Source: Streptomyces wedmorensis (GTDB taxonomy: Bacteria; Actinomycetota; Actinomycetes; Streptomycetales; Streptomycetaceae). From it: a stretch of DNA of 64,000 nt. The DNA lies in contig NZ_JNWK01000020.1 of assembly GCF_000716445.1 (NCBI RefSeq), forward strand, positions 62,001 to 126,000, read 5' to 3'. Made by a program: the position numbers and the translations under genes. Every line of letters begins with the position of its first letter. Within the stretch, counting starts at the first letter, position 1. This document shows positions 7,575-28,961 of the stretch, one piece after another. The notes beneath the pieces are model-generated. The model ran no database searches. It was not told the origin of the DNA and saw only the letters and a list, made by a program, of their open reading frames with translations.

Positions 7575-7668
7575 TGACGAGATGAGGAAACAGCCTTTTC
7601 GGCCGCTCACCGCCGCCGTTGACGCCGCCCTGACGCCATTGACGCCGCTCTTGACGCAACCCCTACGC
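7575..7668. promoter_or_regulatory. TGACG box array upstream of kdp operon 1
   Basis: TGACG begins at 7620, 7631, 7640 and 7652 (spacing 11, 9, 12), with a further isolated copy at 7575 and a degenerate CTACG at 7663. The array lies 80-120 bp upstream of the first kdp ORF. Direct repeats at one helical turn are the normal binding pattern for OmpR/PhoB-type regulators, so KdpE binding is inferred. Confidence 0.6.
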
Positions 7669-7831
7669 GATGGAGCGCCCGCCGGCGGCACGCCACCAGG
7701 CCCAGGGACGGGCACGGGCCACGAAGGGGCACTCGTGCCCACGCGGGCAGCCTCGCCACAGGGGCCGGGCGCGGATCTAAAGTCGAATGTGTCCCGGCGC
7801 CGTCGAAACCGTACTCACGGGAGTGAGTCAG

Positions 7832-8164
7832 ATGAGCGATCTGTCGTGGCTGCCGCAGTCCTGCACTCTGCCCACCGAGGGGCAGCCCCTGCGGGTCGCG
7901 GAGTGGAACGCGTTGTTCGCCGAGCGGTTGGCCTCGTCGGCGAGACCCGGGCCGCTCCGGCTGCGCCTCGGCCTCATCGGCGGGCCTGGCGTCGAGCAGC
8001 GGCTGAGGGACCTTGCCGCGCGCGAGGCCGCCTGCTGCTCGTTCTTCGCCCTCACCGTTACGCCCGGCGATGACCTGACACTCCTGGACATCGGGGTGGA
8101 CCCGACGCAGGAGGCCGTACTGGACGCCCTCTCCGCACGGACCGCGACTCGGAGCACACGGTGA
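7832..8164 (+). CDS. Small conserved-looking protein with CC motif, function unknown
   Basis: The 110-residue protein begins at ATG 7832 after GGGAG. A more upstream GTG at 7787 is less likely. The C-terminal half contains [16 protein letters not shown] followed by a short beta-rich segment ([14 protein letters not shown]). I recall this arrangement from small actinobacterial proteins often found near metal- or redox-responsive regulators, but I cannot name the family. The adjacent cysteines could bind a metal or be redox-active. It is divergent from the kdp operon and shares its intergenic region. A possible -10 (TAAAGT) lies near 7780. Confidence 0.7.
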
Positions 8165-8357
8165 GCGTGGGCCTGCGCGGGGAGACAGGTCGCCGCGAGG
8201 ACTCCCCGGGGCCGGAACCTGTGTGATCACCGACCTCTGCAGCGTTCGCGCCGCCCTGGACTGTGGCACGAGGTTCGATGATCAGGGCGGGCGGCCGACC
8301 GCCGGGGCCGGGGCCCGTCGACATTCGGGCGTCCTGCCCATCGGTAGTGTCGGCGGC

Positions 8358-8693
8358 ACGGCAGTCGCTCGTTCCGTCGCACTGTTCGTAGTCGCCGCCC
8401 TGTTCGAGATCGGGGGCGCATGGTCGGTCTGGCAGGGCGTCCGCGAGCACAAGGGCTGGGTCTGGATCGGCGCCGGAGTCATCGTTCTCGGCCTGTACGG
8501 GGTGGTCGCCACGCTCCAGTCCGACGACAACTTCGGTCGCATCCTCGCTGCCTATGGCGGAATCTTCGTAGCCGGGTCGATCGCCTGGGGCATGGTCGCC
8601 GACGGCTACCGCCCTGACCGCTGGGACGTCATCGGCGCGCTGGTCTGCCTCGCGGGCATGGCCGTGATCATGTACGCGCCCCGCAGCCACTGA
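8358..8693 (+). CDS. YnfA/UPF0060 family membrane protein
   Basis: Four hydrophobic helices and the motifs [33 protein letters not shown] and [20 protein letters not shown] identify the YnfA family, small-multidrug-resistance-like inner-membrane proteins of about 110 residues. Family length places the start at AVARSVALF, but the codon there (8358) is ACG and no ATG, GTG or TTG lies nearby in frame. The only standard start is GTG 8223, which would add 45 unrelated residues. The start may be mutated or ACG may be used. The 3' end is followed by a tandem duplication. Confidence 0.85.
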
Positions 8694-8723
8694 CCGTCCC
8701 CCGGTAGCCACTGACCGTCCCCC
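8685..8723 (+). repeat. Tandem 18-bp duplication at the YnfA stop
   Basis: AGCCACTGACCGTCCCCC occurs at 8685-8702 and again at 8706-8723, separated by GGT (21-bp period). The unit includes the last codons and stop of the YnfA gene, so it looks like a recent slippage duplication. Confidence 0.9.
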
Positions 8724-8828
8724 CTGTCCTCGGCCATCACACCGAGGGCGACACGGACGGGATGCCCGCGCTCCACCCGGGCCGGCCCGGTGCGCATGCT
8801 CTCCCCCAGGGCGCCTCAGACCTCCGCG

Positions 8829-9351
8829 TCAGACCCACAGGAGGACCAGGACGAGGGCGGGGCCGAGGGTGGCGAGGGCGAAGCGGGTCAGGACCAGGGG
8901 GCGGAGCCACGCGGGGAAGGCCCTTGTTGGCGGCGGCGATGAGGGCCGTGGCGTCGACGGAGTGCAGGGCGGGGTCGGCGGAGCGGGCGAAGGCGGCGCG
9001 GGTGTAGGCGGTGGCGAAGACCTGGCCGGCGGTGATGAAGCCGACGCCGAGGAGGACGAGCGGCTCGACGATCCAGGAGAGCAGTCGGCCGGTAGGGCTT
9101 CCGGTGAGGTTCAGGACGCCAAGCGCGGTGAGGGTGGCGCCGATGGAGAGGGCGAGGGCGAGTTCCCAGGGCTTCTCGCGGAAGGCGATGCCGTGCTGGG
9201 CGAGGACCGAGGGGCCGTGGCCCTGGCGGCGGATCTCGGCCTCGGCCGCGTCCTGGGAGGCGCCGCCGCGGAGCCAGGCGACGACGGGGATGACGAAGAA
9301 GGTGGCGGCGAGCAGGAGCTGAAGGGCGGCGGCGAGAGCGGTGGTGTTCAC
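8829..9351 (-). pseudogene. Four-helix membrane protein, paralogue B, frameshifted near the C-terminus
   Basis: Translation from GTG 9351 gives VNTTALAAALQLLLAATFFVIPVVAWLRGG and three or four hydrophobic segments. The layout matches the neighbour at 9381-9908, including the AEIRRQGHGPSVLxxHxIxF region. Near 8921 an apparent extra G in a G/C run shifts the frame. The correct continuation (AFPAWLRPLVLTRFAL to LVLLWV, stop at 8829) is in the adjacent frame, aligned with AFPAWTRTLQ of the paralogue. Without the correction the frame runs on to 8737. Function unknown; probably co-regulated with its paralogue by the TetR protein. Confidence 0.75.
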
Positions 9352-9380
9352 GGGAGTCCTTCTGCGTGGTGAGGGGAGGT

Positions 9381-9908
9381 TCAGACGAGGGCGGCGGCGG
9401 TCAGAGCGAGGGCCGAGCCGGCGAAGACGACGGTGTGGCGGACGTTCTGGAGGGTGCGGGTCCAGGCAGGGAAGGCACCCTCGGCCGCCTTGAGGAAGGC
9501 GGGGACGTCGATCCGGGCCAGCTCGGGGTCGCCCTTGCGGCGGAAGGCGGCGGTGACGGACTTCACCGCGCCGAGCTGGCTCTGGAGGATCGCGATGTTG
9601 GCGAGGAAGGCGATAGAAGAGAAGACCCATGTCAGGCCGGTTCCCCAGCCGCTTCCGGTGAGGTTGAGCACGGCGGCGGCGAGAGAGGCGGCGGCGAAGG
9701 CGCCGGGCGCCCACCACTCGTGACCGCTCGCGTCGAAGCGAAGCTTGTTCTCCTCCAGGACCTCCGGGCGGACGTCCTGGCGGCGCAGCTCGGCGACGGC
9801 GGCGGCCTTGGCGACGGCACCGAAGCGGTGGCGGAGGACCGGGATGCTGACGAAGGCGGCGGCGACGAGGATCTGGGCGGCGGCGGCGAGGACGGTGAGG
9901 GTCTGCAT
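9381..9908 (-). CDS. Four-helix membrane protein, paralogue A, function unknown
   Basis: The 175-residue protein starts at ATG 9908 after a GGAG ribosome site. Hydrophobic segments lie at about residues 3-22, 68-88, 92-112 and 155-175, joined by a charged segment (AELRRQDVRPEVLEENKLRF) and a soluble loop before AFPAWTRTLQ. The downstream gene is a frameshifted paralogue 29 bp away. Because the promoter region carries operator-like repeats shared with the divergent tetR gene, repression by that regulator is likely. I do not recognise the family. Confidence 0.8.
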   Translation of the reverse strand: MQTLTVLAAAAQILVAAAFVSIPVLRHRFGAVAKAAAVAELRRQDVRPEVLEENKLRFDASGHEWWAPGAFAAASLAAAVLNLTGSGWGTGLTWVFSSIAFLANIAILQSQLGAVKSVTAAFRRKGDPELARIDVPAFLKAAEGAFPAWTRTLQNVRHTVVFAGSALALTAAALV

Positions 9909-9935
9909 GGTGGGGCTCCTGATCGGCTCCGTTGG

Positions 9936-10023
9936 ACTTGCACTTAGTTCAAGTGGCGATGTCGAGAACTGTAGAACCGGACTTGAACTATGTGCAAGTG
10001 GTCTCTTGAACTTTGTGCAGTTC
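9936..10023. promoter_or_regulatory. Three TetR operator-like sites
   Basis: Site 1 (9936-9954, ACTTGCACTTAGTTCAAGT) and site 2 (9981-9999, ACTTGAACTATGTGCAAGT) are inverted copies of one another with one mismatch. Site 3 (10005-10023) shares CTTGAACTTTGTGCAG. They lie between the divergent membrane-protein genes and tetR, in the usual position for autoregulated TetR repressors. Confidence 0.7.
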
Positions 10024-10048
10024 GACTTCGCGGCCCTATCGTGAGCCC

Positions 10049-10732: not shown

Positions 10733-10774
10733 CCGGCAGGCCAATACGTCAGGGCCGCGGGGCCCGTAAGGGAC

Positions 10775-10803: not shown

Positions 10804-10851
10804 GCATGCCGTCGACGCCTGGAGATCCCGCACGGGCAGGATCACATCGCT

Positions 10852-13009: not shown

Positions 13010-15625
13010 TCATGAGTCGGCGTGGGCAGGGGCACCCGGCATCCGGGAATCCGCGCCGGGCAGCGTGACGACCATGGTCAGGCCGCCGCCAGGGGTGTCC
13101 TCCGCGGTGAGGGTGCCGCCCATCGCCTCGGTGAGCCCGCGCGCCAGTGCCAGGCCGAGGCCGACACCGGTGGTGTTGTCGGTGTCGCCGAGACGCTGGA
13201 AGGGTTCGAAGACACGGTCGCGGTCGGCGGCCGGGAGGCCGGGCCCTCGGTCGGCGACACGGAGTTCGACGCGGCCGGAGAGCGTACTGGCCCCGAGGCG
13301 GACGCCGCGCCCGGGTGGGGAATGGCGGACCGCGTTGGCGACCAGGTTGGCGACGACCCTTTCGAGGAGCGGAGGGTCGGCGAGGACGAGCGGGGAGTGC
13401 TCCAGTCCGTCCAGGGTCACCCGGTGCTCCGCGTCCGGGAGCCCGTCCAGGGCGGCGGGGACGACTTCCTCCCAGGCCGTGGGGCGGAGGTCCAGGGCGA
13501 GTGCCCCGGCCTGGAGGCGGCTCATGTCGAGCAGGTTCTCGACGAGTCGGCTGAGCCGGGCCATGGACTCGTCGGCGGTGGCCAGGAGCTCGTCGCGGTC
13601 CTCGGCGCTGAAGTCGACGTCGGGGTTGCGCAGGGAGGCGACGGCGGCCCAGCCGGCGGCGAGCGGGGTCCGCAGGTCGTGGCTGACGGCGGCGAGCAGC
13701 GCGGTGCGCATCCGGTCGGCCGCCTTCACGGGCTCGGCCTCGGCCGCCGCCTCTGCGAGGCGGGCCCGTTCGACGGCGGCGGTGACGTGGGCGGCGAAGG
13801 CGGTGAGGACACGGCGCTCGGCGGCCGGCAGGGTGCGCCCGCGCAGCACGAGGAAGCCTCCGTCGCCGAGGGCGACCTGGCTCGCGGCCGGATCGTCCAC
13901 GGGGTGGTCGACGAGTTCGACAGCGTGGGCACCGAAGGTCTCCCGGGTGCGGGCGAGCAGGGCGGGCACCGTGTGCTCGCCCCGTACGACGGAGCCGGCG
14001 AGCGCGGAGAGGGTCTCGGCCTCGGCGGTGGCCCGCGAGGCCCGGCGCGACAACCGCAGCGACCGGTCGACGATCGCCGCGACGATGCCGGCGACGAGGA
14101 CGAACACCCCGAGGACGAGCACGCTGTCGGGGTCGCCGAAGGAGAACGCTCCGATGGGCGGCATGAACCAGTAGTTGAGCAGCAGTGAGGCCGTCACCGC
14201 GGCGACGAGGGCGGAGCCGATGCCGCCGAAGCACGCCACCCCGACCACGGTGACCAGGAAGAGCAGGGCCTCGCTGGTGAGGTTGAGGCTCCCCCGGGCC
14301 CGGTCGAGGAGCAGTGTCAGCAGTACGGGGAGGACCACGCCCGCGAGGGGGCCGGCGATCCGACGGGGCAGCGGGAGGGTGCGCCGCAGCGAGGGCAGCA
14401 GGCGACCTCGGCCCGCCCGCTCGTGCGTGACCATGTGCACGTCGATGCCGCCGGAGAGGGTGACCGCGGTCTCGCCGATGCCCCGCCCGGTGAGGAAGCG
14501 TTCCAGCCGGCCGCGCCGACTGGTGCCGAGGACCAGCTGGGTGGCGTCCGACGCCCGGGCAAACTCCACCAGCGCCGTCGGCACGTCCTCGCCGACGACC
14601 GTGTGATAGCTGCCGCCGATGCTCTCGACCAGACGCCGCTGGCGGGCGAGCGCCCCGGAGGAGGCTCCCGCCGCGAGCCCGTCGCCGCCCACCACGTGGA
14701 CGGCCGACAGTTCGCCGTGGGCCGAGCGGGCGGCGATCCGGCCGGCGCGGCGTATGAGGGTGTCACCCTCCGGGCCACCCGTCAGACCGACGACGACCCG
14801 CTCCCGGGCCTCCCAGACGCCGGCGATGCCGTGGTCGGAGCGGTACGTCCGCAGCGCGTCGTCGACCCGGTCGGCGACCCAGAGCAGGGCGAGCTCTCGC
14901 AGCGCGGTGAGGTTGCCGGGGCGGAACCAGCCGGCGAGGGCGGCGTCCACCATCTCGGGAGGGTGGACGTTGCCGTGCGCCATCCGGCGGCGCAGCTCCT
15001 CGGGGTCGACGTCGACGAGGACGATCTGGTCGGCGCGGCGGACGAAGCCGTCGGGGACGGTCTCGCCCGGCGGCACCTCGGTGATCCGCTCGACGACGTC
15101 GCTGAGCGATTCCAGGTGCTGGACGTCGATGGTGGAGACGACGTCGATGCCGGCCGCGAGCAGTTCCTCGACGTCCTGCCAGCGGCGGGCGTTTCGGTGA
15201 CCCGGCGGGTTGGTGCGGGCGAGGTCGTCGAGAAGGAGGAGTTCGGGCCTGCGGCGCAGGGCGGTGTCGAGGTCGAACGTGCCGGGAGCGCCGCCCGGAT
15301 CCCTGACGGGCGCGCTGGCGGGGTCACGTCCGGATCCGTAGCCAAGGCCGCCGCCGGGCCGGTTCCCGCTCGCGTGCTCCGGCCGCTCCAGCCGCTCCAG
15401 ACCGTGGAGCAGGGCTTCGGTGTGCGGTCGGCCCCGGCAGTCGGCGGCGCCGACGACCACGTCCGTGCCCCGTGCCGCTCTGCGGTGGCCCTCGTCGAGC
15501 ATCCGGTACGTCTTGCCGACCCCGGCCGCGGCGCCGACGAGGACCCTCAGCCTGCCGGGGCGGGCGGCGGGCGGGCCCGTCTCCGGGCGGGCGGCGGAGG
15601 GGTACGTCTCCGGGCGCCCGGTCAC
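13010..15625 (-). CDS. kdpD: KdpD-like sensor histidine kinase, copy 2
   Basis: The 871-residue protein has the complete KdpD layout: N-terminal domain with Walker A (VGAAAGVGKT), universal-stress-like domain, DUF4118 membrane block (about residues 395-485), GAF-like linker, H-box AAVSHDLRTPLAAGW, N-box VANAVRHSPPGRG and G-boxes DRGPGLP and TGVGLGLALARGL. GTG 15625 is chosen because it lies 2 bp after the kdpF2 stop. Longer in-frame upstream sequence is kdpF2 in another frame. No kdpE neighbour exists, so the partner may be the kdpE at 2369. It is the only intact, full-length KdpD in the window. Confidence 0.92.
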   Translation of the reverse strand: MTGRPETYPSAARPETGPPAARPGRLRVLVGAAAGVGKTYRMLDEGHRRAARGTDVVVGAADCRGRPHTEALLHGLERLERPEHASGNRPGGGLGYGSGRDPASAPVRDPGGAPGTFDLDTALRRRPELLLLDDLARTNPPGHRNARRWQDVEELLAAGIDVVSTIDVQHLESLSDVVERITEVPPGETVPDGFVRRADQIVLVDVDPEELRRRMAHGNVHPPEMVDAALAGWFRPGNLTALRELALLWVADRVDDALRTYRSDHGIAGVWEARERVVVGLTGGPEGDTLIRRAGRIAARSAHGELSAVHVVGGDGLAAGASSGALARQRRLVESIGGSYHTVVGEDVPTALVEFARASDATQLVLGTSRRGRLERFLTGRGIGETAVTLSGGIDVHMVTHERAGRGRLLPSLRRTLPLPRRIAGPLAGVVLPVLLTLLLDRARGSLNLTSEALLFLVTVVGVACFGGIGSALVAAVTASLLLNYWFMPPIGAFSFGDPDSVLVLGVFVLVAGIVAAIVDRSLRLSRRASRATAEAETLSALAGSVVRGEHTVPALLARTRETFGAHAVELVDHPVDDPAASQVALGDGGFLVLRGRTLPAAERRVLTAFAAHVTAAVERARLAEAAAEAEPVKAADRMRTALLAAVSHDLRTPLAAGWAAVASLRNPDVDFSAEDRDELLATADESMARLSRLVENLLDMSRLQAGALALDLRPTAWEEVVPAALDGLPDAEHRVTLDGLEHSPLVLADPPLLERVVANLVANAVRHSPPGRGVRLGASTLSGRVELRVADRGPGLPAADRDRVFEPFQRLGDTDNTTGVGLGLALARGLTEAMGGTLTAEDTPGGGLTMVVTLPGADSRMPGAPAHADS

Positions 15626-15717: not shown

Positions 15718-16560
15718 GAACGATCAACTCCCGTTGGAGTGCCGGCCGGGGCCGGTGTGCGGATGTCTGCTTCCATCGAAGCGGGCGACGTGGCCCGCTT
15801 CCGTCACCTTGACGACGTCCTGTCGCCGGACGGGCGGACACTGATGAAGCCCTGACGGGTCCTGTACGCGTGATGCCCACGGACGGGTGCGGCACTACCT
15901 GGCACGGCAAGGCGAGGCCGGGAGCGTACGGCCGGACTCGTCCGGCCCGCGGCCACCCCCTCGGTGCCGCGGGCCGGATCGTCCCTCGCGTCGGACGGCG
16001 TCGTCGATCGCGCCGAGGTGTCGGTCCGGGCCGTCGGTCACGGACCGTGCGCGCCGGTCTTTCGACGGCGCGTTCCCTCCCACCTCGGACCTTCGAACGG
16101 TCGTCCGATCCCCCGTGAGGTGATCATCCTGCGTCGGTTCCGGTCCCGTTCCGGGCGTCGTTGACGGTCTTCTGACGCCGCGTCGCCCCGCTTTGACGGG
16201 CCTTTGACGAAGCCGTCGGAGACGCCGTAAGAGCCTCGTCAAAGCCTGCCCCGAACCACGGGGCCGGCGGCTCCGGGCGTCTAGATTCGCCCTCGGTCGC
16301 TCACCGACCGGGGACGTCAGTGGCCTGACCGTCCCGGGCCGCGGGGGCGCGGGACGCCCTCCCATCCGGCGCCCGTGCCCCCGTACCGCGCGACCGCGCT
16401 GCCCGTCCACAGCCGCACGGCGGGGGCCGGGGCACGCGCCCCGGCCTCCCGCACGGTGTGCCCCGCGCAGCGGTCGCCGTGCGCTGTGAGCCGATGGCCC
16501 CAGCCGTCCCCTTCCGGCCTCCGCCGCGCGGACGGCCGGCTTCTCAGAAGGTCTCCCGCG
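15718..16560. other. 843-bp divergent intergenic region between kdpF2 and kdpB2
   Basis: No convincing gene was seen. Several short ORFs here lack ribosome sites and domain content. The region contains the TGACG array at 16162-16209 and a possible -10 (TAGATT) near 16282. Its unusual length suggests that intervening genes, perhaps kdpA, were deleted. Confidence 0.5.
16162..16209 (+). promoter_or_regulatory. TGACG box array upstream of kdpB2
   Basis: TGACG begins at 16162, 16173, 16194 and 16205 (spacing 11, 21, 11), so all four face the same side of the helix. An inverted copy (CGTCA) is at 16237. It matches arrays before the other potassium genes. Confidence 0.65.
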
Positions 16561-18606
16561 ATGCACTCCGCCGCGCCCCGACCGACGCCCACCTCCACGG
16601 CCCCGGCGTCCCCCGTGAATCCGTCCGCCCCCGACTTCCCTGCCGTACCACCCCGGAATCCTGCCCCCCGCTTCCGCCCCCGACGGCGCCGGGCGGGCCA
16701 CGGCGGGCTGCTCGACCCGGTGCAGCTGGTGAAGTCCTTCCCGGACGCGCTGCGCAAGCTGCACCCGCGCACCCTCATCCGGAAGCCGGTGCTCTTCGTG
16801 GTGGCCGTCGGATCGGCACTGACCACGCTCTCGGCACTCCTCGACCCGTCCGTGTTCACCTGGACCGTCAGCGTCTGGCTCTGGCTGACCGTGGTCTTCG
16901 CGAACCTGGCGGAGGCCGTCGCCGAAGGCCGGGGCCGCGCGCAGGCCGAGTCGCTGCGCAGGGCCCGTACGGACACGGTCGCGCTGCGGCTCCCGCACTG
17001 GCGGTACGGCACGGACGTCGACCGCGCGGCGACGGAGGCGGTGGCCGCGACCGAGCTCAGACAGTTCGACTTCGTCCTCGTCGAGGCGGGCGAGCTGGTC
17101 CCGGCGGACGGTGACGTCGTCGCCGGGATCGCCTCGGTCGACGAGTCCGCCGTCACCGGTGAGTCCGCGCCCGTGATCCGCGAGGCCGGGGGCGACCGCT
17201 CCGGGGTCACCGGCGGCACGACGGTGCTCTCGGACCGGATCGTCGTACGGGTCACGTCCCGGCCCGGCCACTCCTTCGTGGACCGGATGATCGCCCTCAT
17301 CGAGGGCGCACAGCGGCAGAAGACCCCGAACGAGATCGCCCTCAACATCCTCCTCTCCGCGCTGACCGTCGTCTTCGTCCTGGTGGTCGTCGCGCTGAAG
17401 CCGATGGCGGGGTACGCGGACGCCGCCCCGTCCACGACCGTGCTCGTCGCCCTCCTGGTGACCCTCATCCCCACGACGATCGGCGCGCTGCTCTCGGCGA
17501 TCGGCATCGCGGGCATGGACCGGCTGGTGCAGCGCAACGTGCTCGCCATGTCCGGCCGGGCGGTGGAGGCGGCCGGCGACGTGAACACCCTGCTGCTCGA
17601 CAAGACCGGCACCATCACCCTCGGCAACCGCGAGGCCGCCGCCTTCATCCCACTCCCCGGGGTCGAGCCCTCGCTCCTCGCCGACGCCGCCCAGCTCTCC
17701 TCCCTCGCCGACGAGACCCCCGAGGGCCGGTCCGTCGCCGCGCTCGCCCGTCGGCAGTACGGCCTGGAGGCACCCGCCGAGGGCGAGTTGGCGAACCCCC
17801 GGTTCGTCGAGTTCAGCGCGCAGACCCGCATGAGCGGGATCGACCTGCGCTGGGACGGCGGCGCCTGCCACATCCGCAAGGGGGCCGCGACCCAGGTCGT
17901 CGCCTGGGTGGAGATGTACGGGGGCACGGTGCCGCCCGAGGCCCGCGCCTGGTCCGACGCGATCGCGGACGCGGGAGGAACACCCCTCCTCGTGGCCGTC
18001 CACGACGCCGACGGTCCCCGGGTCCTGGGGATCGTCCACCTCAAGGACGTCGTGAAGGACGGCATCCGGGAACGGTTCGCCGAGCTGCGCCGCATGGGGA
18101 TCCGTACCGTCATGGTCACCGGGGACAACCCGCTCACGGCCCGGGCCATCGCCCACGAGGCCGGGGTCGACGACTTCCTCGCCGAGGCGACTCCCGAGGA
18201 CAAACTCGCTCTCATCAAGCGGGAACAGGCGGGCGGGAAGCTCGTCGCGATGACCGGCGACGGCACCAACGACGCGCCCGCGCTCGCGCAGGCGGACGTC
18301 GGCGTGGCGATGAACACCGGCACGTCGGCCGCGAAGGAGGCCGGCAACATGGTCGACCTCGACTCCAACCCGACCAAGCTCATCGAGATCGTCGAGATCG
18401 GCAAGCAACTCCTCATCATCTTCAACGCCCTGATCATCGTGGCCCTGATCCCGCTCGCCCTGCGCGGCGTCCGCTACACCCCGGCGTCCGCGCACGACCT
18501 GCTGCGCCGCAATCTACTGGTGTACGGACTCGGCGGCCTCCTCCTCCCCTTCGTCGGCATCAAGGTCATCGACCTGCTCGTCTCGGCGATCCCCGGTCTC
18601 GGGTGA
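16561..18606 (+). pseudogene. kdpB: KdpB P-type ATPase, copy 2, with a 52-residue internal deletion
   Basis: The 681-residue frame starts at ATG 16561 after a proline-rich N-terminus. [27 protein letters not shown] and [12 protein letters not shown] are all present. Near 18418 GKQLLI is joined directly to IFNALII. KdpB1 and E. coli KdpB have about 52 more residues here, starting [20 protein letters not shown] and ending SAILSAVI. The frame is kept, but transmembrane helices after the catalytic core are lost, so activity is doubtful. No kdpA or kdpC accompanies it. TCATC-like microhomology at the junction fits a deletion. Confidence 0.85.
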
Positions 18607-19833: not shown

Positions 19834-20622
19834 ATGCTGATCCCCCACCCCGCCCACCAGCCCCCGTCCTGCGCGCGCTCCTTCCCCGTCGGCGCGCCCG
19901 GCACGGCGACACTGGCCGAGCACGTCCTCACCACCGGTCACGGCACCTGGTGGACCGACCGGCCCGTCCGGCCCCGTGCCGTCGCCGTCACCAGCGGACG
20001 CCACGCCCTCCTGGCCGGCGATCCGACCGCCCTCGCCCCGGCCGACCTGTCCCCGCTGGCCGGTCACTGCGTCGAGGCGTCCGCCCGTTTCCTGCCCGTC
20101 CTCACAGCAGCCTTCGACCTCCTCCAGCCGTGGGACCGCATGCTCTACCTCCACCAGGCCGATCCGGCCACCGCCCGCCTCCCCCGCGGCACGGCCGTCC
20201 GACGACTGCGCGCGGACGACGGTCCGGCGCTCGCCGCCGCCGGTCTCGCCCTCGGCTGGACCTTCGCGACATGGGGCGGCGCCGAGGGACTCGCCCGGTC
20301 CGGACACGGTTGGGCGGCCTTCCGCAAGGGCCGCGTCCTGGCCGTGGCCTGCGCGCGGTTCACAGGCAGCCGGTACGAGGACGTGGCCTGCGCCACCGAC
20401 CCCGGCGAGCGGCGCCGGCACCTCGCCCTCGCCTGCGTCACGGGCCTGACCGCCGACGTCGCCGCCCGCGGCCGGACCGCCACCTGGAGCTGCTCCCGCG
20501 AGAACCGGGCCAGCCGCCTGCTCGCATGGACGGCCGGCTTCCGGCTTCACCGCGAGTACGTCCACCACACCACCGGACCGGCCACCGTCAGCGGCACGTC
20601 AAAACTGCTCGCCGCCGCGTAA
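19834..20622 (+). CDS. GNAT-family N-acetyltransferase
   Basis: The 262-residue protein starts at ATG 19834, 6 bp after GGAGG. The C-terminal half has the GNAT fold: RKGRVLAVACARF as the central strand, then DPGERRRHLALACVTGLTADVAARG for acetyl-CoA binding, followed by SRENRASRLLAWTAGFRL, the usual ENxxSxxLxxxxGF motif. The N-terminal domain is unrecognised. The acceptor substrate is unknown. Confidence 0.85.
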   Translation: MLIPHPAHQPPSCARSFPVGAPGTATLAEHVLTTGHGTWWTDRPVRPRAVAVTSGRHALLAGDPTALAPADLSPLAGHCVEASARFLPVLTAAFDLLQPWDRMLYLHQADPATARLPRGTAVRRLRADDGPALAAAGLALGWTFATWGGAEGLARSGHGWAAFRKGRVLAVACARFTGSRYEDVACATDPGERRRHLALACVTGLTADVAARGRTATWSCSRENRASRLLAWTAGFRLHREYVHHTTGPATVSGTSKLLAAA

Positions 20623-20675: not shown

Positions 20676-21206
20676 ATGCAGCCGCCGCTCCCCTCCCCCC
20701 GCCCCTCCTCCGACCTGCTGCACGACACCGGATGGCCCGGTGAGGCCCGGGCCGCCCTCATCTGCTCGGGCCTCCTGCTCGGCGTCGCACTGATCGTCGA
20801 GGCCGGTGTCCATGGCCTGACCCTGCTCCGGACGGTGGGCTGCATCGCCCTGTCGGCGCTCCTGCTGGTGGTCCTGCTGCCCGCCCGGGTGAGCGCGGTC
20901 CCGGGCCTGCTGACGGTCCAGGGGCTGTGGGTCACCAGGACCGTGCGCACCGACCGGCTCGCGGCGGCCGTCTGGCCGGCGGACACCGCCGGGCGCCTCT
21001 CCTTGCGGGACGAGGACGGAGGACGGGCCGAGATCGATCTGCGCGTCCTGTTCGCCAACCCCGCCCTGTGGCTGCGGCTCGAAGCCGACGCCCGCGCCTC
21101 ACGCGAACGCGGCACCCTGGACCACGGCGCGGCCGACCTCGCGCGGCTCGCCCTACACGTCCACACCGAGACGGCCCGCTCCGTCCTCAAGCTCTCCGGT
21201 CTGTGA
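20676..21206 (+). CDS. Small membrane protein, function unknown
   Basis: The 176-residue protein has two hydrophobic helices (about residues 26-44 and 50-68), then a soluble beta-rich part ([24 protein letters not shown]) resembling the PH-like layout of many actinobacterial membrane proteins. ATG 20676 fits the frame. Its 3' end overlaps the convergent DUF4118 gene by 54 bp. Confidence 0.75.
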
Positions 21207-21953
21207 CGGCCGTCCGTCACCGTCGAGCACGAGGGCGGCCAGGCCCGCCAGGTCGACGGCGACGAGCCGCGCCTCCGCGGAGGCCGGTACGGCCCCGGGC
21301 TCCGGCGTCAGGAGAAAGCGCCCCAGGACTCGGCCGCCCGCCACCGCCGGCAGCTCGACCTCACCTTCTGGCCAGCCCTGCCGGTCCAGGTCCCAGATCC
21401 AGCCCTCCACGCGTACCGAACCGTCCGCCCGAAGCCGGGACGGCGGGGGCCCGTCGGGCTCCACGGCGGTGGTGAACCGGCATTCCCGCAGCTCCAGGAC
21501 CTCTGCGAGGTCCCGCCTGATCCGGTCGACCAGCTCGGACGCCGTACCGCCGCCCGACCGCACCCGCCGGAACGCGCGGTGCAGGCGCTCCAGTCGCTCC
21601 GCGTCGGTCACGGCGACCGACCCCATCACGCGGGCGCGGGCGGCGAGCTGGGAGACGACGAGGCCGACGAGGAGCAGCAGGACCGCCGTCTCGACATCGG
21701 CCCGATCCTCGATGTGGAAGCTCTGGTACGGCTGCGTATGGAAGAAGTCGAACCAGGCCGCCGCCGACAGCGCGGCCAGCGCTCCCGCCCACCGGTTGCC
21801 CAGGGCGGCGACGGCGACGACCACCACGACCAGCAGGAGCGCAAGGTTGGTGGGCGTGACGCTCGTACGCGACGGCACCAAGGCGAGAGCCGCCAGGAAG
21901 GGTGCGAGAACCGCAGCCGCCAAGGCGGCCACGTCCCGAAACGGCATACGCAT
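21153..21953 (-). CDS. DUF4118 (KdpD-type sensor membrane domain) protein without a kinase domain
   Basis: The 266-residue protein has four hydrophobic segments near residues 5-110 with the DUF4118 sequence [28 protein letters not shown], as in KdpD, and then a GAF-like soluble part. The histidine-kinase domains are absent. ATG 21953 gives MRMPFRDV; an upstream in-frame ATG at 21992 is less likely. It shares its promoter region and a TGACG array with the divergent APC permease, so it may be a K+- or turgor-sensing accessory protein. Confidence 0.85.
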
Positions 21954-22013
21954 CGTCGGCCTCCTCAGTGGCCCCTCGCACGCACCTGGCACGTCTCAAG
22001 GCTGCGGCCGATG

Positions 22014-22059
22014 TGACGAAGGTGACGCCCTACCGGCGGATCTTGACGGTTCCCTGACG
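22014..22059 (+). promoter_or_regulatory. TGACG box array upstream of the APC permease
   Basis: TGACG begins at 22014, 22023, 22044 and 22055 (spacing 9, 21, 11), about 100-145 bp before the permease start. Same arrangement as the array at 16162. Confidence 0.65.
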
Positions 22060-22158
22060 CGCCCGCCGGATGTGTCTCCGCGCATGCTGCTTACGCTGGC
22101 CCGGCCGCGCGACCAGCGGCCGAAAACCCCTCATCGAGCAGACCTCAGGAGTACCTCC

Positions 22159-24114
22159 ATGGCCACCACGGACGAGACGCGCGGCAGCAGGCTGCGGGCG
22201 TGGATGCTGGAGGGGCTGTCCGACATGGGCAAGGGCAAACCCTCCCGCCCGAAGGCGGCGGCCCCGGACGCCGGGCACAAGGGGCAGCCCTGGTACCGGG
22301 TGATGTGCCTGACCGGTGTCGACTACTTCTCCACCCTCGGCTACCAGCCCGGCATCGCCGCCCTGGCCGCCGGCCTGCTCTCCCCCGTCGCGACGATCGT
22401 GCTGGTGATCGTCACGCTGGCGGGCGCGCTGCCGGTCTACCGGCGGGTGGCGGAGGAGTCCCCGCACGGCGAGGGCTCGATCGCGATGCTGTCGCGGCTG
22501 CTGTCGTTCTGGAAGGGCAAGCTGTTCGTCCTCACCCTGCTGGGGTTCGCCGCCACCGACTTCCTCATCACCATCACCCTGTCGGCGGCCGACGCCTCCA
22601 CCCACCTGGTGGAGAACCCCCACCTGGAATCGGCCCTGCACGACAAGCAGGTGCTGATCACCATGATCCTGATCGCGCTGCTCGGCGCGGTCTTCCTCAA
22701 GGGCTTCCTGGAGGCGATCGGCGTCGCCGTGGCCCTGGTGGGCATCTACCTGGCGCTGAACGTGGTCGTCGTGGTCACGGGCATGTGGCAGGTGATCACC
22801 GAGGGCCATGTCGTCACCGACTGGACGGCGGCCCTCACCCAGGAACACGGCAACGTCTTCGTGATGATCGGCGTCGCGCTGATCGTCTTCCCCAAGCTCG
22901 CCCTCGGCCTGTCCGGATTCGAGACCGGCGTCGCCGTCATGCCGCACGTCCAGGGCGACCCCGGCGACACCGAAGCGCGGCCCACCGGCCGCATCCGGGA
23001 CACCAAGAAGCTGCTCACCACCGCCGCGCTGATCATGAGCGTCTTCCTGATCTGCACCAGCTTCATCACCACGGTCCTGATCCCGCATGAGGAGTTCGAG
23101 TCCGGCGGCAAGGCCAACGGCCGCGCGCTGGCCTACCTCGCCCACGAGTACCTGGGCAACGCCTTCGGCACCGTCTACGACGTCTCCACGATCCTCATCC
23201 TGTGGTTCGCCGGCGCCTCCGCGATGGCCGGCCTGCTCAACCTGATGCCCCGCTACCTGCCGAAGTACGGCATGGCCCCGCACTGGGCCCGGGCCGTACG
23301 CCCGATGGTGATCGTCTTCACCCTGGTCGCTTTTCTGGTGACGTGGATCTTCGACGCCGACGTCGACGCGCAGGGCGGCGCGTACGCCACCGGCGTCCTC
23401 GTCCTGATCTGCTCGGCCGCCATCGCCGTCACCATCGCGGCCCGCAAGGCCGGCCAGCGCGGCTGGACGATCGGCTTCGGGATCATCTCCGTCGTCTTCC
23501 TCTACACGACGGTCGTCAACGTCATCGAGCGCCCGGACGGCGTGAAGATCGGCGCCTGCTTCATCGCCGGCATCATCCTCATCTCGCTCCTCTCGCGCCT
23601 CGGCCGCGCCTTCGAGCTGCGTGTCACCCACGTCGAACTCGACGGCATGGCCGAGCGCTTCATCCGCGACATCGCCAGCCGGACCCCGCGGTTCATCGCC
23701 AACGAGCCGGACAACCGCGACGCGGAGGAGTACCGGGCGAAGAAGGACCAGATCCGTGCCGACAACGACCTCCCGGGCACCGAGGACTTCGTCTTCATCG
23801 AGGTCACCGTCACCGACCCCTCCGAGTTCGAGGCCGGCCTCACCGTCCGCGGCGAGGTCCTGCACGACCGCTACCGCGTGCTCACCGTCGAGTCCTCCTC
23901 CGTCCCCAACGCCCTCGCGGCCCTCCTGCTCCATGCCCGGGACATGACCGGCGTCCGCCCGCACGTCTACTTCGAGTGGACCGAGGGCAACCCCTTCGCC
24001 AACTTCCTGCGCTTCTTCCTCTTCGGCCAGGGCGAGATCGCGCCGGTCACCCGCGAGATCCTCCGCGAGGCCGAGTCCGACCGCGACCGCCGCCCCCGCG
24101 TCCACGTCGGCTGA
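22159..24114 (+). CDS. APC-superfamily permease with C-terminal cytoplasmic domain
   Basis: The 651-residue protein has about twelve hydrophobic helices (residues about 45-490) with the APC-type first helix [21 protein letters not shown] soluble C-terminal part of about 160 residues carries [20 protein letters not shown] and [26 protein letters not shown]. Start ATG 22159 after a good CAGGAG. The TGACG array upstream and the neighbouring DUF4118 and KimA-like genes suggest K+ uptake, although related proteins are commonly called amino-acid permeases. Substrate by sequence alone is unsure. Confidence 0.9.
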
Positions 24115-24228: not shown

Positions 24229-26067
24229 CTAACGATCCCGGAGCCGGAACCTCAACCGGCAGATCACGGCGTCGGTGTCCCTGCGTACGGCGTGGGCCAC
24301 GACCGCGCCGCGCTGGTTCTGCAGCAGCCGCTGCCACAGGCTCTCGGGCTCGGCCTCCGGGATGAGGACAGTGACACGGGTTCCGGGGTCGGCGTCGCGC
24401 AGTGCGCGTACGTAGGCGCTGATGGGCCGGCCGAGCGAGCGGCGTTCGAAAGGGAGCCGGACGAGCGGAACACCCGGGTTCCACAGGGCCCAGTCCCGCT
24501 CCAGGGCCTCGGTGACCGCCAGGTCCTCGGGGTCCGGGTGGCAGACGGTGACCGCGCGGACCTCGTCGCCGAGGGAGACGGCGGTGGTGAGGGCCTCGCT
24601 GGTGAGCCGGGTGAGCGAGGAGACGGGGACCAGGACCAGGGAGCGCTCACGATGGGGCGGCTCCGGGATCCTGCCCACGCCGAGGCGCTCACCGATCCGC
24701 CCGTACGCGCGGTGGACGGTCTCGAAGGCGAGGACGAGTGCAGGCAGGGCGATCACGATCAGCCAGGCCCCGTCGTGGAACTTGGTGGCGGTGACGACGA
24801 CCGCGGAGACACCGGTCAGCACAGCGCCGAGACCGTTCAGGAAGGCCCTGCCCCACTGCCGGGTGGCCCTCCAGTGCAGGACCATGCCGGTCTGGGCGAT
24901 CGTGAAGCCCACGAACACCCCGATCGCGAAGAGCGGCACCAGGGTATTGGTGTCGCCGCCGGAGAACACCAGCAGCGCCGCCGACACCACCGCCAGCCAC
25001 ACCACGCCGTGCCGGTGCACCTGACGGTCCGCCTTGAGGCCGAAGACGTGCGGCGCGTAGTTGTCCCGGGCCAGCAGCTTCAGCAGGACGGGCAGGCCTC
25101 CGAAGGACGTGTTCGCAGACAACGCGAGGAGCACCATGGTCGCGAACTGGACGACGTAGAAGGCCCCGTTGTGGCCGAGGGAGGCGTCGGTGAGCTGGGC
25201 GAGGACGGTGACGCCCTCCACCGGCTGGAGCCCGAAGCGGGAGATCAGCACCGACAGCCCGATCAGCATCACGCCGAGGAGCCCGCCCAGCGCGACCTCG
25301 GCGCGCATCGCCCGTCGGGCGGCCGGCGCCCGGAAGGACGGCACCGCGTTGGCTATCGCCTCCACGCCGGTCAGCGCGGAGCAGCCGGAGGCGAAGGCCT
25401 TCAGCAGGAGCAGGGCGCCGACGGTGGTGGCGTTGTCGGCGAGGACGGAGGCGTGTCCGTCGGAGGCGGCGGTGGAGACGGGCGTGTCGCGGAACAGGCC
25501 GACGGCGATCATGACGAGGATCGCGCCGACGAAGACGGCGGTCGGGATGATGAAGGCGCGGGCCGAGTCGACGATGCCGCGCAGGTTCACGGCCGTGATG
25601 AGCACCAGGACGCCGAGGCAGATCACCAGCCGGTCGCCATAGAGCCCTGGGAAGGCCGACGTCAGCGCGGCCACACCCGCGGTGACGGCCACGGCCACGT
25701 TGAGGACGTAGTCGAGGACCAGCGAACCGGCCGCGACCAGGCTCGTACGCCGCCCCAGGTACGCCTTCGCCACCGCGTAGGAACCACCGCCGTCCGGGAA
25801 CGCGGCGATGACCTGCCGGTACGAGGCGACCAGCACCGCAAGCAGCCCCGCGATGGCGAGCGTCACCGGCAGCGTGAATCCCAGCCCGTACCCGCCGGCG
25901 GCCGCGAGGACCAGCACGATGGCCTCGGGCCCGTACGCCACCGACGCCATCGCGTCCAGCGACAGAGCAGCGAGCCCGGTGACGGCCGTCAGCTTGTGCC
26001 GCGCGCCGGTATCGGGCGGTTCCTCGGCGCCGGGTACGGCGCCCTTCTCAGCGGTCACGGTGGTCAT
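24229..26067 (-). CDS. KimA-like APC-superfamily potassium permease
   Basis: The 612-residue protein matches the length of Bacillus KimA (about 607). The first helix signature is LSLDAMASVAYGPEAIVLVL, followed by PDGGGSYAVAKAYLGRR and about twelve helices, then a cytoplasmic universal-stress-like C-terminal domain (RSLVLVPVSSLTRLTSEALTTAVSLGDEV). KimA proteins are high-affinity K+/H+ symporters and in Firmicutes are inhibited by c-di-AMP. ATG 26067. Convergent with the APC permease 115 bp away. A TGACG-like array lies 68-116 bp upstream. Confidence 0.9.
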   Translation of the reverse strand: MTTVTAEKGAVPGAEEPPDTGARHKLTAVTGLAALSLDAMASVAYGPEAIVLVLAAAGGYGLGFTLPVTLAIAGLLAVLVASYRQVIAAFPDGGGSYAVAKAYLGRRTSLVAAGSLVLDYVLNVAVAVTAGVAALTSAFPGLYGDRLVICLGVLVLITAVNLRGIVDSARAFIIPTAVFVGAILVMIAVGLFRDTPVSTAASDGHASVLADNATTVGALLLLKAFASGCSALTGVEAIANAVPSFRAPAARRAMRAEVALGGLLGVMLIGLSVLISRFGLQPVEGVTVLAQLTDASLGHNGAFYVVQFATMVLLALSANTSFGGLPVLLKLLARDNYAPHVFGLKADRQVHRHGVVWLAVVSAALLVFSGGDTNTLVPLFAIGVFVGFTIAQTGMVLHWRATRQWGRAFLNGLGAVLTGVSAVVVTATKFHDGAWLIVIALPALVLAFETVHRAYGRIGERLGVGRIPEPPHRERSLVLVPVSSLTRLTSEALTTAVSLGDEVRAVTVCHPDPEDLAVTEALERDWALWNPGVPLVRLPFERRSLGRPISAYVRALRDADPGTRVTVLIPEAEPESLWQRLLQNQRGAVVAHAVRRDTDAVICRLRFRLRDR

Positions 26068-26134
26068 GCGGACGGACTCCTTCGGATAGGGCTCCGCTCA
26101 GCCTCCGCCCATCCCCCAGGCTTGTCCGCCCTTC

Positions 26135-26183
26135 CTGGCGCATTCTTGGCGCCGCCCGGCCTTCCCCTGACAGGTCCTTGACG
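26135..26183 (-). promoter_or_regulatory. Degenerate TGACG box array upstream of the KimA-like gene
   Basis: TGGCG (26135), TGGCG (26146), TGACA (26168) and TGACG (26179) are spaced 11, 22 and 11, repeating the arrangement before kdpB2 and the APC permease with one-base variants. Confidence 0.5.
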
Positions 26184-26272
26184 CCGGCCTCGACGGCGCG
26201 GGCGCGTCAGGGTGGCGTGAAGACTCGGCGGGCACAGGCCGGCCGGCCCGACCCCGCCCTACAGTTCGGCCC

Positions 26273-26455
26273 ATGACGCGACCCGACGGACGCATGCCTT
26301 CCGACCGCAGCGTGCGCCGGCACTCGATCGCGCTCGTCGGCGGCGCCTGCCTCGCCAGTCCCCTCGGGCTGGCCCTCGACAGCATGTGGCTGCTCGGCGC
26401 CGGCGCGTGGCAACTCATCGCGGCCATCCTCCTGGAACTGGTCTACCGCCCGTGA
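26273..26455 (+). CDS. 60-residue putative membrane protein
   Basis: ATG 26273 encodes a basic N-terminus (MTRPDGRMPSDRSVRRHS) and two hydrophobic segments separated by a short loop, ending LVYRP. No family is recognised and the ribosome site is weak. It is divergent from the KimA-like gene. Confidence 0.45.
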   Translation: MTRPDGRMPSDRSVRRHSIALVGGACLASPLGLALDSMWLLGAGAWQLIAAILLELVYRP

Positions 26456-26550
26456 CCACCCACATCACGGCGCTTCTCTGAATCGCCGGCCGCGACCACC
26501 AGGTGGCCCAAGGCGCCCCGCCGCAATCGCTCGCCCCCACCAACACACAC

Positions 26551-28236
26551 CTAGCGAGGGTCGGGGAAGCCGTCGAGGCCCAGCGAACAGGGGCTGAGCG
26601 GCATACCGTCGTCAGGTGCGTCGGTCAGGAACATCCGGTAGTGCTCGCCCCTGGCGGGGCGCAGCACGAGGGTCGCCTCCGGCACGAGGCTGCTGCGGAG
26701 CGACTCGAGGACGGTAGGCCCGTCGTCGGCTGTGACTTCCGTGTGGAAGATGCAGACGGAGCCGAGGTTGAGAAGGTGCCCTGCGATCGTGATCCCGTAT
26801 TCGGAGCTCGTGACGCGTAGCGACTGCGGTCGTCCGCTGAGCAACTCCCTGGTGTTCGCATCGTCGATCCAGGTGAGTGTGATCGTCAGCTCGCGGCTGA
26901 ATGGCGATGCGACGCAGCGGCCTTCCACCAGGAGGCGAGCCATCCGTAGAGCAATCCGGTCGGCCATCGACATGTCTGCTGGGATGGGGAAGTCCTGTTC
27001 ACAGTGTCGCTGGACCACTTCGAGGTCCTCCAGGAACAGTTGCAGCTGTGCCCAGCGCCGATTGTCATCCGCAGTGCCGCTCCTCGGCAGACGCCCCGCA
27101 CCGGCGATTTGGCCGTCAATCAGCACTCGGAAGTCACCGCCGAGCGAAAGACGCCGACGCAGCCGCAGCACCTTGAGCGCCTCTGTGGGACCGAGGCCGG
27201 CGAGGTCGAATTGATAAGCGAGTTTCGCGGGGGCCGATTCATCGAACGGACGCAGCACCCGAAGCACCGCACCAGGTAGATCCACCTCGACCGAGCTCCC
27301 CAGGGAGCCGGAACCTCGCGCCTTAAGCCGACCCGCGTACGACGCCTGCACTCTGCCGTCCTCGCCGAGGAATGCTATGGAGACTGCAGCATCGGTCTCC
27401 GACACAGGCGAGATGGGTCTCCACAGCACCGTGGTGTTGGTAAATGTCTGCGCAATCCACTCCGGTCCGCTGACCGTCAGGCTCTCTACCACGTCGGCGG
27501 GGAGCTCGACCGCCTCAGCGACTCCGAACCCCAGGGAGCGGGTGACGGCGGCTGACAGGCCGGCGTCCATGGCCCTTCCGGAGATGGTCAGGGTGATGGG
27601 GCTTACCTCATGAGCCCGAGGATGCTTAGCTCGCAAAGTCTGGATGACCTTGTCACCTTCGCGGGCGAAGTCCACCGTCCAGTTCGGGTCAAGGTCGTCG
27701 ACCACGCGCCCCAGAGCCTGCACTCGAGCCCCCAGGTCGGCCGTACCGCACGCCAGAACGTCCTGCTCCCGGTTCATGATCTTCGCGTACTCCAGCAGAC
27801 CAACATCGCCACTGGTGCGGCTGAGACTGCGCTCGATATCGCTATGCGCGGCGAGGCGATCGTCCAGGGCGGCCCGGTCCATCACCGTGACCTTCACGTT
27901 CCGGCCTTCACCCAGACCCATGACGAACGCCCGCTCGCCCGGGGTAAGAGTGCAAGGAACTACGAGGACCCACTCATAGGGGTCGTGGTCCATGGCTCGC
28001 TTGAACGACTTCTTGATACTCGGTCTGCGCCCACGTCCCTGCAGACCGTCAGGGAAGTACTTGAGCTGATAGATCCGCAGGCGGCCGCCTTGCACCACGT
28101 CAATGTCTCGGCCGCCGTCACCGCCGCGCCCGTTGACGGCCCGCACCTCCGCCGTCTCGCTGTAAAGCCGGTGGACCAACGCCTCAACGACTCGGTCGAA
28201 GTGTGGCTGCCCGATCCGATCCCACTCGAACGCCAC
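26551..28236 (-). CDS. PD-(D/E)XK (Mrr-like) nuclease-domain protein
   Basis: GTG 28236 after GGTAGGGG gives a 561-residue protein starting VAFEWDRIGQPHFDRVVEAL. The first 130 residues form a restriction-endonuclease-like domain with GRGGDGGRDIDVV (Asp44) and IYQLKY (Gln57, Lys59), the D...QxK core of the Mrr/PD-(D/E)XK superfamily. Such domains cut DNA in type IV restriction and other defence systems. The remaining 430 residues are unrecognised. Base composition is less G+C-rich than the neighbours, suggesting horizontal acquisition. It stands alone on this strand next to the VMAP operon. Confidence 0.7.
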   Translation of the reverse strand: MAFEWDRIGQPHFDRVVEALVHRLYSETAEVRAVNGRGGDGGRDIDVVQGGRLRIYQLKYFPDGLQGRGRRPSIKKSFKRAMDHDPYEWVLVVPCTLTPGERAFVMGLGEGRNVKVTVMDRAALDDRLAAHSDIERSLSRTSGDVGLLEYAKIMNREQDVLACGTADLGARVQALGRVVDDLDPNWTVDFAREGDKVIQTLRAKHPRAHEVSPITLTISGRAMDAGLSAAVTRSLGFGVAEAVELPADVVESLTVSGPEWIAQTFTNTTVLWRPISPVSETDAAVSIAFLGEDGRVQASYAGRLKARGSGSLGSSVEVDLPGAVLRVLRPFDESAPAKLAYQFDLAGLGPTEALKVLRLRRRLSLGGDFRVLIDGQIAGAGRLPRSGTADDNRRWAQLQLFLEDLEVVQRHCEQDFPIPADMSMADRIALRMARLLVEGRCVASPFSRELTITLTWIDDANTRELLSGRPQSLRVTSSEYGITIAGHLLNLGSVCIFHTEVTADDGPTVLESLRSSLVPEATLVLRPARGEHYRMFLTDAPDDGMPLSPCSLGLDGFPDPR

Positions 28237-28717
28237 AGCGCCCCTACCTCGCAATGGACCCTCCCGCACAGCATGGCACTCGCCACTGACAGCTGCGCAG
28301 AACGAGCCCGTGTCAGCCATCGAGCACCAGGCCGCGCGCAACCGGGCCGATCCGGTCGAGGCGGGCCGCATATGGGCGACGGGCCCCCGTCTATACGCGA
28401 CTCAGGGCGCGGCCTGGGCCTTCACAGGCCCGAGGCCCACGCCACCACCCCGGCGGCCAGACGTCCCGGAACCGCGACCCCACACCCTGAACCCTTCTTC
28501 GGACAATGGAGCCCCTCAGGCCCTTGAGGCGGCATCCGCCCGACGCCGACACGGCATCACGGAGCGTCACGACCGAGAAACGTCTGGGCGGGGCCGGTCA
28601 ACCGCGCGGCAGCCGGCCTCACCATCCCATCGCGAATGCCACGTCCACACGGGCGAGTGCCCTGGTCGGCAGCTTCAACCTACGCATGACGACCCATCAG
28701 AGAACAGGCCGTTCATG

Positions 28718-28753
28718 CGTCAAACGTGCGTCACGTGCGTCAGATATGCGTCA
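28718..28753 (-). promoter_or_regulatory. CGTCA (inverse TGACG) box array
   Basis: CGTCA, the reverse complement of TGACG, begins at 28718, 28729, 28738 and 28749 (spacing 11, 9, 11), and each copy but its flank is preceded by TG (TGCGTCA). The spacing is nearly that of the kdp array at 7620. No potassium gene is now adjacent. Confidence 0.55.
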
Positions 28754-28800
28754 AGATATCGCCCGTAACGCATATAGTGCACACTCGCTAAAGCCGCAGG

Positions 28801-28878
28801 TCAGCGGCCCTTCTCGGCGGGCTCAAGGATCGCCACGCACTCGACATGGTGGGTCATCGGAAAGATGTCGGCCTGGAC
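28801..28878 (-). pseudogene. 3' remnant of a class I SAM-dependent RNA methyltransferase (TrmA/RlmD-like)
   Basis: On the minus strand the frame reads ADIFPMTHHVECVAILEP followed by AEKGR and a stop at 28801. (D/A)xFPMTHHVE is the conserved C-terminal end of tRNA/rRNA uracil-5-methyltransferases. The rest of the gene is absent. I recall that related Streptomyces carry this gene beside APC and TrkA-type potassium genes, so this is probably a deletion scar of an ancestral potassium locus. Confidence 0.6.
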
Positions 28879-28945
28879 GCAGCCAGGAAAGCAGCAGGTC
28901 AGAGATGCTTCTAGGGCCCGAATGAGGACAGCCGGTCGCCCGGAG

Positions 28946-28961
28946 CGTCAAATGAGCGTCA
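28946..28961 (-). promoter_or_regulatory. CGTCA pair at 11-bp spacing
   Basis: CGTCA occurs at 28946 and 28957, the same motif and one-turn spacing as the arrays before the potassium genes. It lies 150 bp before the Trypco1-like gene. Confidence 0.3.

Follow-up and report, generated by a model that had tools for sequence, protein, structure and literature searches.

Potassium genes and TGACG box arrays in the window

We analysed a stretch of 64,000 nucleotides from Streptomyces wedmorensis (C20:62001-126000, in a genome of 9.38 Mb in 259 contigs), called the window below, in which genes of the Kdp and KimA potassium transporters lie next to arrays of a short box containing TGACG. An earlier note on this DNA had placed such arrays in five promoter regions and had assigned them to one regulator of the OmpR/PhoB type, probably KdpE. 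Judged from the sequence, the arrays at 7616, 16158 and 22008 and a degenerate one at 26132 are very probably KdpE binding sites of a potassium regulon. The boxes found beside the potassium genes are listed here with window coordinates; the 60-bp scores come from a matrix built from other kdp loci and the dimer scores from a 21-bp matrix.

7616..7675, plus strand: box array 1, two dimers 32 bp apart with an extra TGACG, upstream of kdpA-B-C-E-D (minus strand)
15806..15870, plus strand: extra weaker boxes upstream of the likely kdpD2 start (60-bp score 14.5; dimers 13.3 and 15.4)
16158..16217, plus strand: box array 2, between kdpD2 (minus) and kdpB2 (plus) (60-bp score 36.0)
16224..16244, minus strand: extra single dimer box in opposite orientation, facing kdpB2 (dimer score 22.5)
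20584..20604, minus strand: weak dimer box, some 70 bp before the small membrane protein gene (dimer score 12.4)
22008..22067, plus strand: box array 3, between the DUF4118 gene (minus) and the APC permease gene (plus) (profile and dimer scores)
26132..26191, plus strand: degenerate box array 4, upstream of the KimA-like gene (60-bp score 2.5)

The TGACG positions given earlier were exact for 7620/7631/7640/7652, 16162/16173/16194/16205 and 22014/22023/22044/22055 on the plus strand and for 28718/28729/28738/28749 on the minus strand. In front of the KimA-like gene an exact TGACG stands at 26179 alone; the other positions, read by eye, are TGGCG (near 26136 and 26147) and TGACA (26168), and the array keeps the 0/11/32/43 layout despite its degenerate letters. 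The spacing, which had been described as pairs 9-12 bp apart separated by about 9 or 21 bp, is better described as two 11-bp direct-repeat dimers 32 bp apart. In array 1, accordingly, the fourth box of the dimer layout is CCTACG at 7662, and the TGACG at 7640 is an extra box inside the gap. The boxes at 15806..15870 had been overlooked.

The genes around the boxes are as follows.

1..2579, minus strand: kdpD1 reading frame, which exits the window at the left; true start inside it, near 2300 (PF02702)
2369..3055, minus strand: kdpE, OmpR-family response regulator and candidate binder (NCBIfam KdpE as top match, 243 bits)
3157..3840, minus strand: kdpC (PF02669)
3837..5700, minus strand: kdpB1, frame interrupted in the assembly (homology)
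5698..7330, minus strand: kdpA (PF03814, E 9e-225)
13010..15530, minus strand: kdpD2, start estimated (PF02702, HisKA, HATPase_c)
16375..18606, plus strand: kdpB2, KdpB homologue without a C-terminal stretch (TIGR01497, E 1e-255 in two stretches)
20676..21206, plus strand: small membrane protein (by eye), without a Pfam match; recurs near sites in relatives
21153..21992, minus strand: DUF4118 protein (PF13493, E 2e-20)
22159..24114, plus strand: permease, APC-type according to the earlier note; a longer open reading frame (ORF) containing it has no Pfam match
24229..26067, minus strand: KimA-like potassium transporter (Protein Data Bank 6s3k, KimA, E 1.2e-116)

The kdpE product matches the E. 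coli KdpE structures 4kny (E 7.6e-63) and 4kfc. The kdpD1 gene is complete as an ORF at L016 1811-4579, with PF02702 at C20:63689-64315, and small kdpF-like ORFs were seen by eye upstream of kdpA, at about 7330-7540. Two divergent gene pairs flank arrays, kdpD2 and kdpB2 around 16.2 kb and the DUF4118 and permease genes around 22.0 kb. The latter had been announced as an APC permease with DUF4118; the DUF4118 protein is in fact the product of a separate, divergent gene, and the domain occurs also in the KdpD2 sensor kinase. As for the three potassium uptake families claimed for the region, Kdp and KimA are secure by homology, but the APC-type permease had no sequence match among solved structures and a local identity to KimA of 21%.

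Neither kdpB copy appears intact in the assembly: in kdpB1 stretches are missing and the frame changes, kdpB2 is short at its C-terminal end, and a block of 70 bp is 100% identical between the two (4178-4247 and 18349-18418). An assembly artefact at repeats, or recombination, is a plausible cause of this damage.

Conservation of the box in the genome, the genus and beyond

The box was defined on a reference set of the 80 best-matching kdp loci from contigs of relatives, some of which share one genome; by name 78 are Streptomyces, one is labelled Kitasatospora and one is Microtetraspora. The unit is a dimer, TTGACG-N3-YCCWTACG, with half-sites 11 bp apart, usually present as two dimers 32 bp apart: in the alignment TTGACG stands at 0, YCCWTACG ends at 16, TTGACG recurs at 32 and the second TACG lies at 45-48. 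Read on the kdp strand the box is CGTAWGGR-N3-CGTCAA. An iterative matrix gave a site above 12 upstream of kdpA, on the strand opposite kdp, in 79 of the 80 loci, a count to be taken as a measure of conservation and not as an independent test, since the kdp-derived matrix was trained on the loci later counted with it. On the complementary strand of the same stretches, 3 of 80 exceeded 12. The eightieth locus (L115) has the box motif with a spacing of 31 and not 32, owing to a 1-bp indel. At kdpFABC a promoter-like block of the GTTT type starts about 28 bp past the proximal dimer, and TT stands at +30/+31 beyond that dimer in 77 of 79 loci. RNAalifold predicted no pairs in the box alignment.

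Within the window, the 60-bp matrix ranked 7616 highest (53.9), followed by 16158, 15806, 26132 together with 16186 on the minus strand (both 2.5), and 22008. These six positions scored above -3, whereas 60 second-order Markov simulations gave on average 0.03 such positions per window. The highest score in the 60 simulated windows was 2.2, which is exceeded even by the degenerate array 4. The dimer matrix gave nine window matches above 15 against a simulated mean of 0.18, the highest being 23.8 at 22041 in array 3; one of the nine (28736) lies in the array linked to a methyltransferase gene that is described below. The 12.4 of the weak box at 20584..20604 falls within the range of the simulated maxima.

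For searches of whole genomes, a 60-bp profile was built from 55 of the 79 box sites, none from S. wedmorensis, after 24 similar ones had been thinned out by hand; L115 was outside this site set. The three best matches in the S. wedmorensis genome are array 1 (C20:69616, E 3e-11), array 2 (C20:78159, window 16159, E 5.3e-6) and array 3 (C20:84025, window 22025, E 0.005, model positions 18-59 only). The single dimer box facing kdpB2 was recovered as C20:78223-78253 with E 0.0975. Among the five next-best matches outside C20 (E 0.03-0.24), none had a 60-bp score above -5 or, in the fetched stretch, a gene of the neighbour-gene panel, which consisted of kdpD/E, the small membrane protein, kdpB2, KimA, APC, kdpA/C remnants and a decarboxylase.

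The profile found a site in 114 of 121 genomes of the genus at E <= 0.05. All 105 genomes with KdpA have one, compared with 9 of the 16 without KdpA (Fisher 1.8e-7). The genus-wide site listing covers E <= 3.4e-4, and the counts of listed sites exclude weaker ones. Upstream of full-length kdpA genes, a listed site lies no more than 700 bp away in at least 107 of 116 cases (median distance 293 bp), and all of these 107 sites are on the strand opposite kdpA. A further 41 listed sites are not upstream of a full-length kdpA, namely that of S. wedmorensis at kdpD2/kdpB2 and 40 secondary sites in relatives. Of the 40, 27 are followed by a panel gene at a distance of no more than 700 bp; for positions drawn at random from these loci the figure was 1155 of 8000. 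The genes behind these sites are kdpD/E (8), the small membrane protein (6), kdpB2 (4), KimA (3), APC (3), kdpA/C remnants (2) and a decarboxylase (1). Decarboxylases had entered the panel because arrays adjoined their genes; with the panel reduced by this member the count is 26 of 40. In four relatives (L056, L060, L061 and L063) TGACG arrays adjoin decarboxylase genes of the ornithine/DAP/arginine type. Relatives also carry strong boxes at KimA, unlike the degenerate array 4.

The off-panel sites are of several kinds. One has a Na+/H+ exchanger as neighbour (L224) and one a Usp gene (L229). In L233, L235 and L286 the neighbour is the same gene, whose DoxX domain was tested in L233, the other two being matched by N-terminal sequence. 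A similar neighbourhood is shared by L239, L241 and L248, a methyltransferase of the ubiE (menaquinone) type having been tested in L239 only. The remaining five (L240, L242, L246, L249 and L287) are unclassified, neighbour kdp or lie at a contig end. It is possible that the DoxX-type gene and the ubiE-type neighbourhood are further targets.

Outside the genus, a search at the level of the class found KdpA in 55 of 118 genomes and returned 30 loci, 26 of them from other genera. A dimer scoring at least 15.0 was present on the expected strand at 16 of these 26 kdpA loci, in nine families, and on the other strand at 1 of 26. The two best dimers were exactly 32 bp apart in 15 of the 26, in some with a weak second dimer, and in L261 with both dimers weak; L261, below 15 on the expected strand, scores 21.1 on the other.

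KdpE as the candidate regulator and the alternatives

The minimal KdpE site at kdpFABC of Mycobacterium smegmatis was mapped by footprinting and electrophoretic mobility shift assay (PMC5401905). Aligned with the Streptomyces dimer matrix in one register, this site scores 22.8 bits; among 20,000 shuffles and 20,000 random 22-mers none scores as high. The half-site order and the 11-bp register are alike, with CGTAAAGA-N3-CATCAA there and CGTAWGGR-N3-CGTCAA here; both sites lie upstream of kdpFABC, with a -35 of the GTTC type in M. smegmatis and the GTTT block in Streptomyces. The two systems differ in that M. smegmatis is described with one 22-bp site, one target operon and no KdpE binding at the kdpDE promoter (PMC5401905), whereas we see double dimers and several candidate targets, which in relatives include kdpDE. 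That report puts the number of species with a mapped KdpE site at only four and finds no noticeable similarity between the M. smegmatis site and the others; its likeness to the present box becomes visible once the Streptomyces consensus is available.

The comparison with other regulators is looser. Like the sites of E. coli KdpD/KdpE, the boxes consist of direct-repeat half-sites with kdpFABC as target, but the E. coli site is made of AT-rich 6-bp half-site repeats, and the sequence here is GC-rich and different (PMC3264566, as far as its available text describes the site). PhoP-type sites of the OmpR/PhoB family, with 7-bp direct repeats and a 4-bp spacer, have the same period of 11 bp; they belong to a different regulator, and the likeness is one of period (PMC4832192). 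In other cases potassium transporter genes are controlled by the c-di-AMP (ydaO) riboswitch (PMC10117811, in the part available). No such riboswitch was found upstream of KimA, the window having no Rfam match at gathering score; it has no tRNA either.

In a test of 30 genomes that included all 16 without KdpA, KdpD was found in all 23 site-bearing ones. Among the seven without a site it was clear in three, below the Pfam cut-off in one and not found in three, so that KdpD above the cut-off stands at 23/23 with a site and 3/7 without (Fisher 0.0013).

Taken together, these data argue for KdpE at the potassium genes. A shortage of potassium would be sensed by KdpD, which would lead to phosphorylation of KdpE; KdpE dimers would then occupy the direct repeats, typically as two dimers spaced by 32 bp (three helical turns), and the bound protein would activate the neighbouring promoter. 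Its targets would be kdpFABC, kdpD2/kdpB2, the DUF4118/APC permease pair, KimA and the small membrane protein gene, with kdpDE in relatives, and the potassium regulon would be common to most of the genus. The single OmpR/PhoB-type regulator proposed earlier thus agrees with a box conserved before kdpFABC, with the M. smegmatis site and with KdpD in 23 of 23 genomes, but does not extend to the array at 28718. The uncertainty is widest for the extent of the regulon and for other regulators that may share the box.

Several results weigh against this assignment. The KdpE match of the window stays below the NCBIfam cut-off of 325 bits. In the genome-wide search the fourth match (E 0.03) is an unrelated one on another contig, and array 3 at 0.005 is only about sixfold stronger; the degenerate KimA array is missing from these matches. 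Nine of the 116 full-length kdpA genes have no site among the matches listed, 13 of the 40 secondary sites have no panel gene behind them, and outside the genus 10 of the 26 kdpA loci are below the dimer threshold of 15. At several APC and kdpB2 genes TTGACG runs in the gene's own sense, opposite to its orientation at kdpA. Three of the seven genomes without a site retain a clear KdpD. In M. smegmatis, binding of KdpE at the kdpDE promoter was not seen, according to the part of the report at hand (PMC5401905). For S. venezuelae, PMC10117811 cites unpublished data according to which KdpDE is not needed on sporulation medium or in the presence of 0.5 M NaCl or KCl, and in S. coelicolor kdpFABC is described as mainly down-regulated with salt (PMC13011467). 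These two salt results do not address potassium starvation.

The 13 off-panel sites mean either that the regulon is wider or that the box is shared with another regulator. It is unlikely, though worth keeping in mind, that another member of the OmpR/PhoB family owns the box or that several share it. The sites beside the DoxX-domain, menaquinone-type methyltransferase and Usp genes speak for this, as does KdpD in genomes lacking a site; the agreement in exact register with the KdpE footprint of M. smegmatis, the position of the box upstream of kdpFABC and, in relatives, of kdpDE, and the presence of KdpD in all 23 site-bearing genomes tested speak for KdpE itself.

The boxes might also be promoter parts, such as the -35 element of a sigma factor, because TTGACG is generally known to resemble a -35 hexamer and a promoter-like GTTT block is nearby. 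We consider this very improbable: at kdp the TTGACG and the gene are on opposite strands, four phased half-sites are conserved over about 50 bp, and the GTTT-type block is a separate element at a fixed distance, as its conserved TT indicates. It is scarcely credible that a frequent 5-mer in GC-rich DNA has clustered by chance to give these arrays. The 5-mer is indeed common, and TGACG alone is scarcely enriched in the window (218 occurrences against 194.8 +- 14.5 expected; 7 of 100 shuffles reach 218), so plain counting was dropped as uninformative. However, the spaced pattern TGACGN4-7TGACGN4-16TGACGN6TGACG had four matches in the whole genome, all on C20 (three inside the window and one at C20:129083), and its reversed control none; array 1, whose last spacing is 12, does not fit the pattern. 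Together with the box in 79 of 80 loci and the simulations, this bears out the earlier view that the arrays are not due to chance.

The exact four-TGACG pattern was rejected as a definition of the site, being too narrow in that it misses array 1 and mixes in the methyltransferase-linked array. It was present in 20 of 41 genomes (S. wedmorensis and 40 relatives), with at least one match of the reversed control in 6 of 41, and in other genera it also matched tandem-repeat-like stretches.

With KdpE as the probable binder, conservation of the box in the genus and beyond and its fit to the M. smegmatis site would give a defined, directly testable regulon, and boxes before several transporter genes point to candidate new potassium genes. 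A wider proposal, on which we are evenly divided, is that KdpE of Streptomyces, and possibly of many Actinomycetes, would be the master switch of a multi-transporter regulon for potassium starvation marked by the 32-bp double-dimer box, and that the APC permease, the small membrane protein, the DUF4118 protein and, in one relative, the Na+/H+ exchanger would be unrecognised parts of potassium uptake or sensing. A search of the open-access literature by title and start of abstract found no description of a Streptomyces KdpE box of such kind.

The array at 28718 and the methyltransferase 3' ends

The fifth array had been counted among the shared promoter arrays of the potassium genes. This did not hold, because no potassium gene lies behind it and it sits beside an RNA methyltransferase gene, at its 3' end, in an arrangement that occurs five times on C20. 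The two features are:

28718..28753, minus strand: separate TGACG array (11-9-11), 3' of the methyltransferase gene fragment
28801..28880, minus strand: 3' fragment of an RNA methyltransferase gene, next to the array

The array has a genome-wide profile E of 0.64, and one dimer in it scores 18.9 against a simulated maximum of 18.5. It is present in five copies on C20, the others being at 39.6 (degraded), 129.1, 148.7 and 168.0 kb. Each copy adjoins an RNA methyltransferase 3' end, and the gene is intact only at the 168.0-kb copy; this intact gene, at C20:168.1-169.5 kb, is the sole PF05958 match in the genome. A pattern-matching array is near this methyltransferase gene in seven relatives, and in the four in which both were located (L055, L057, L062 and L067) it starts about 56 bp past the stop codon. 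We regard the array at 28718 as an element of its own that is conserved and may be linked to an integration hot-spot.

More specifically, the array could be part of such a hot-spot (for example as arm-type repeats of an integrase or as an attachment region) and have spread with inserted islands, an explanation to which we give about an even chance. Five copies, each with a methyltransferase 3' end and only one gene intact, look like signs of serial insertion, and the recurrence of a similar array 3' of the methyltransferase gene in seven relatives fits as well. A tyrosine integrase (PF00589, E 7e-23) lies at C20:98220-98771, window 36220-36771, between two array copies, and HsdM adjoins such an array in one relative. 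On the other hand, PF00589 has just one match on C20, 7.5 kb from the array, in a search that excluded serine recombinases and the loci of relatives. A link of these methyltransferase-linked arrays to potassium is possible as well. A third KdpD-domain protein, at C20:177229-177855, lies about 9 kb from the array of the intact methyltransferase gene; in five relatives a KdpD is 9.4-9.8 kb from the methyltransferase-linked array, and in several a KimA-like gene precedes the methyltransferase.

A Vsr-like endonuclease ORF was seen, by eye only, at one methyltransferase-array site (L014 2410-2910). A protein of 606 amino acids, without a Pfam or NCBIfam match, is encoded at window 26551-28371, and is duplicated together with the array at C20:146.5-148.8 kb, with about 85% DNA identity over 2.3 kb.

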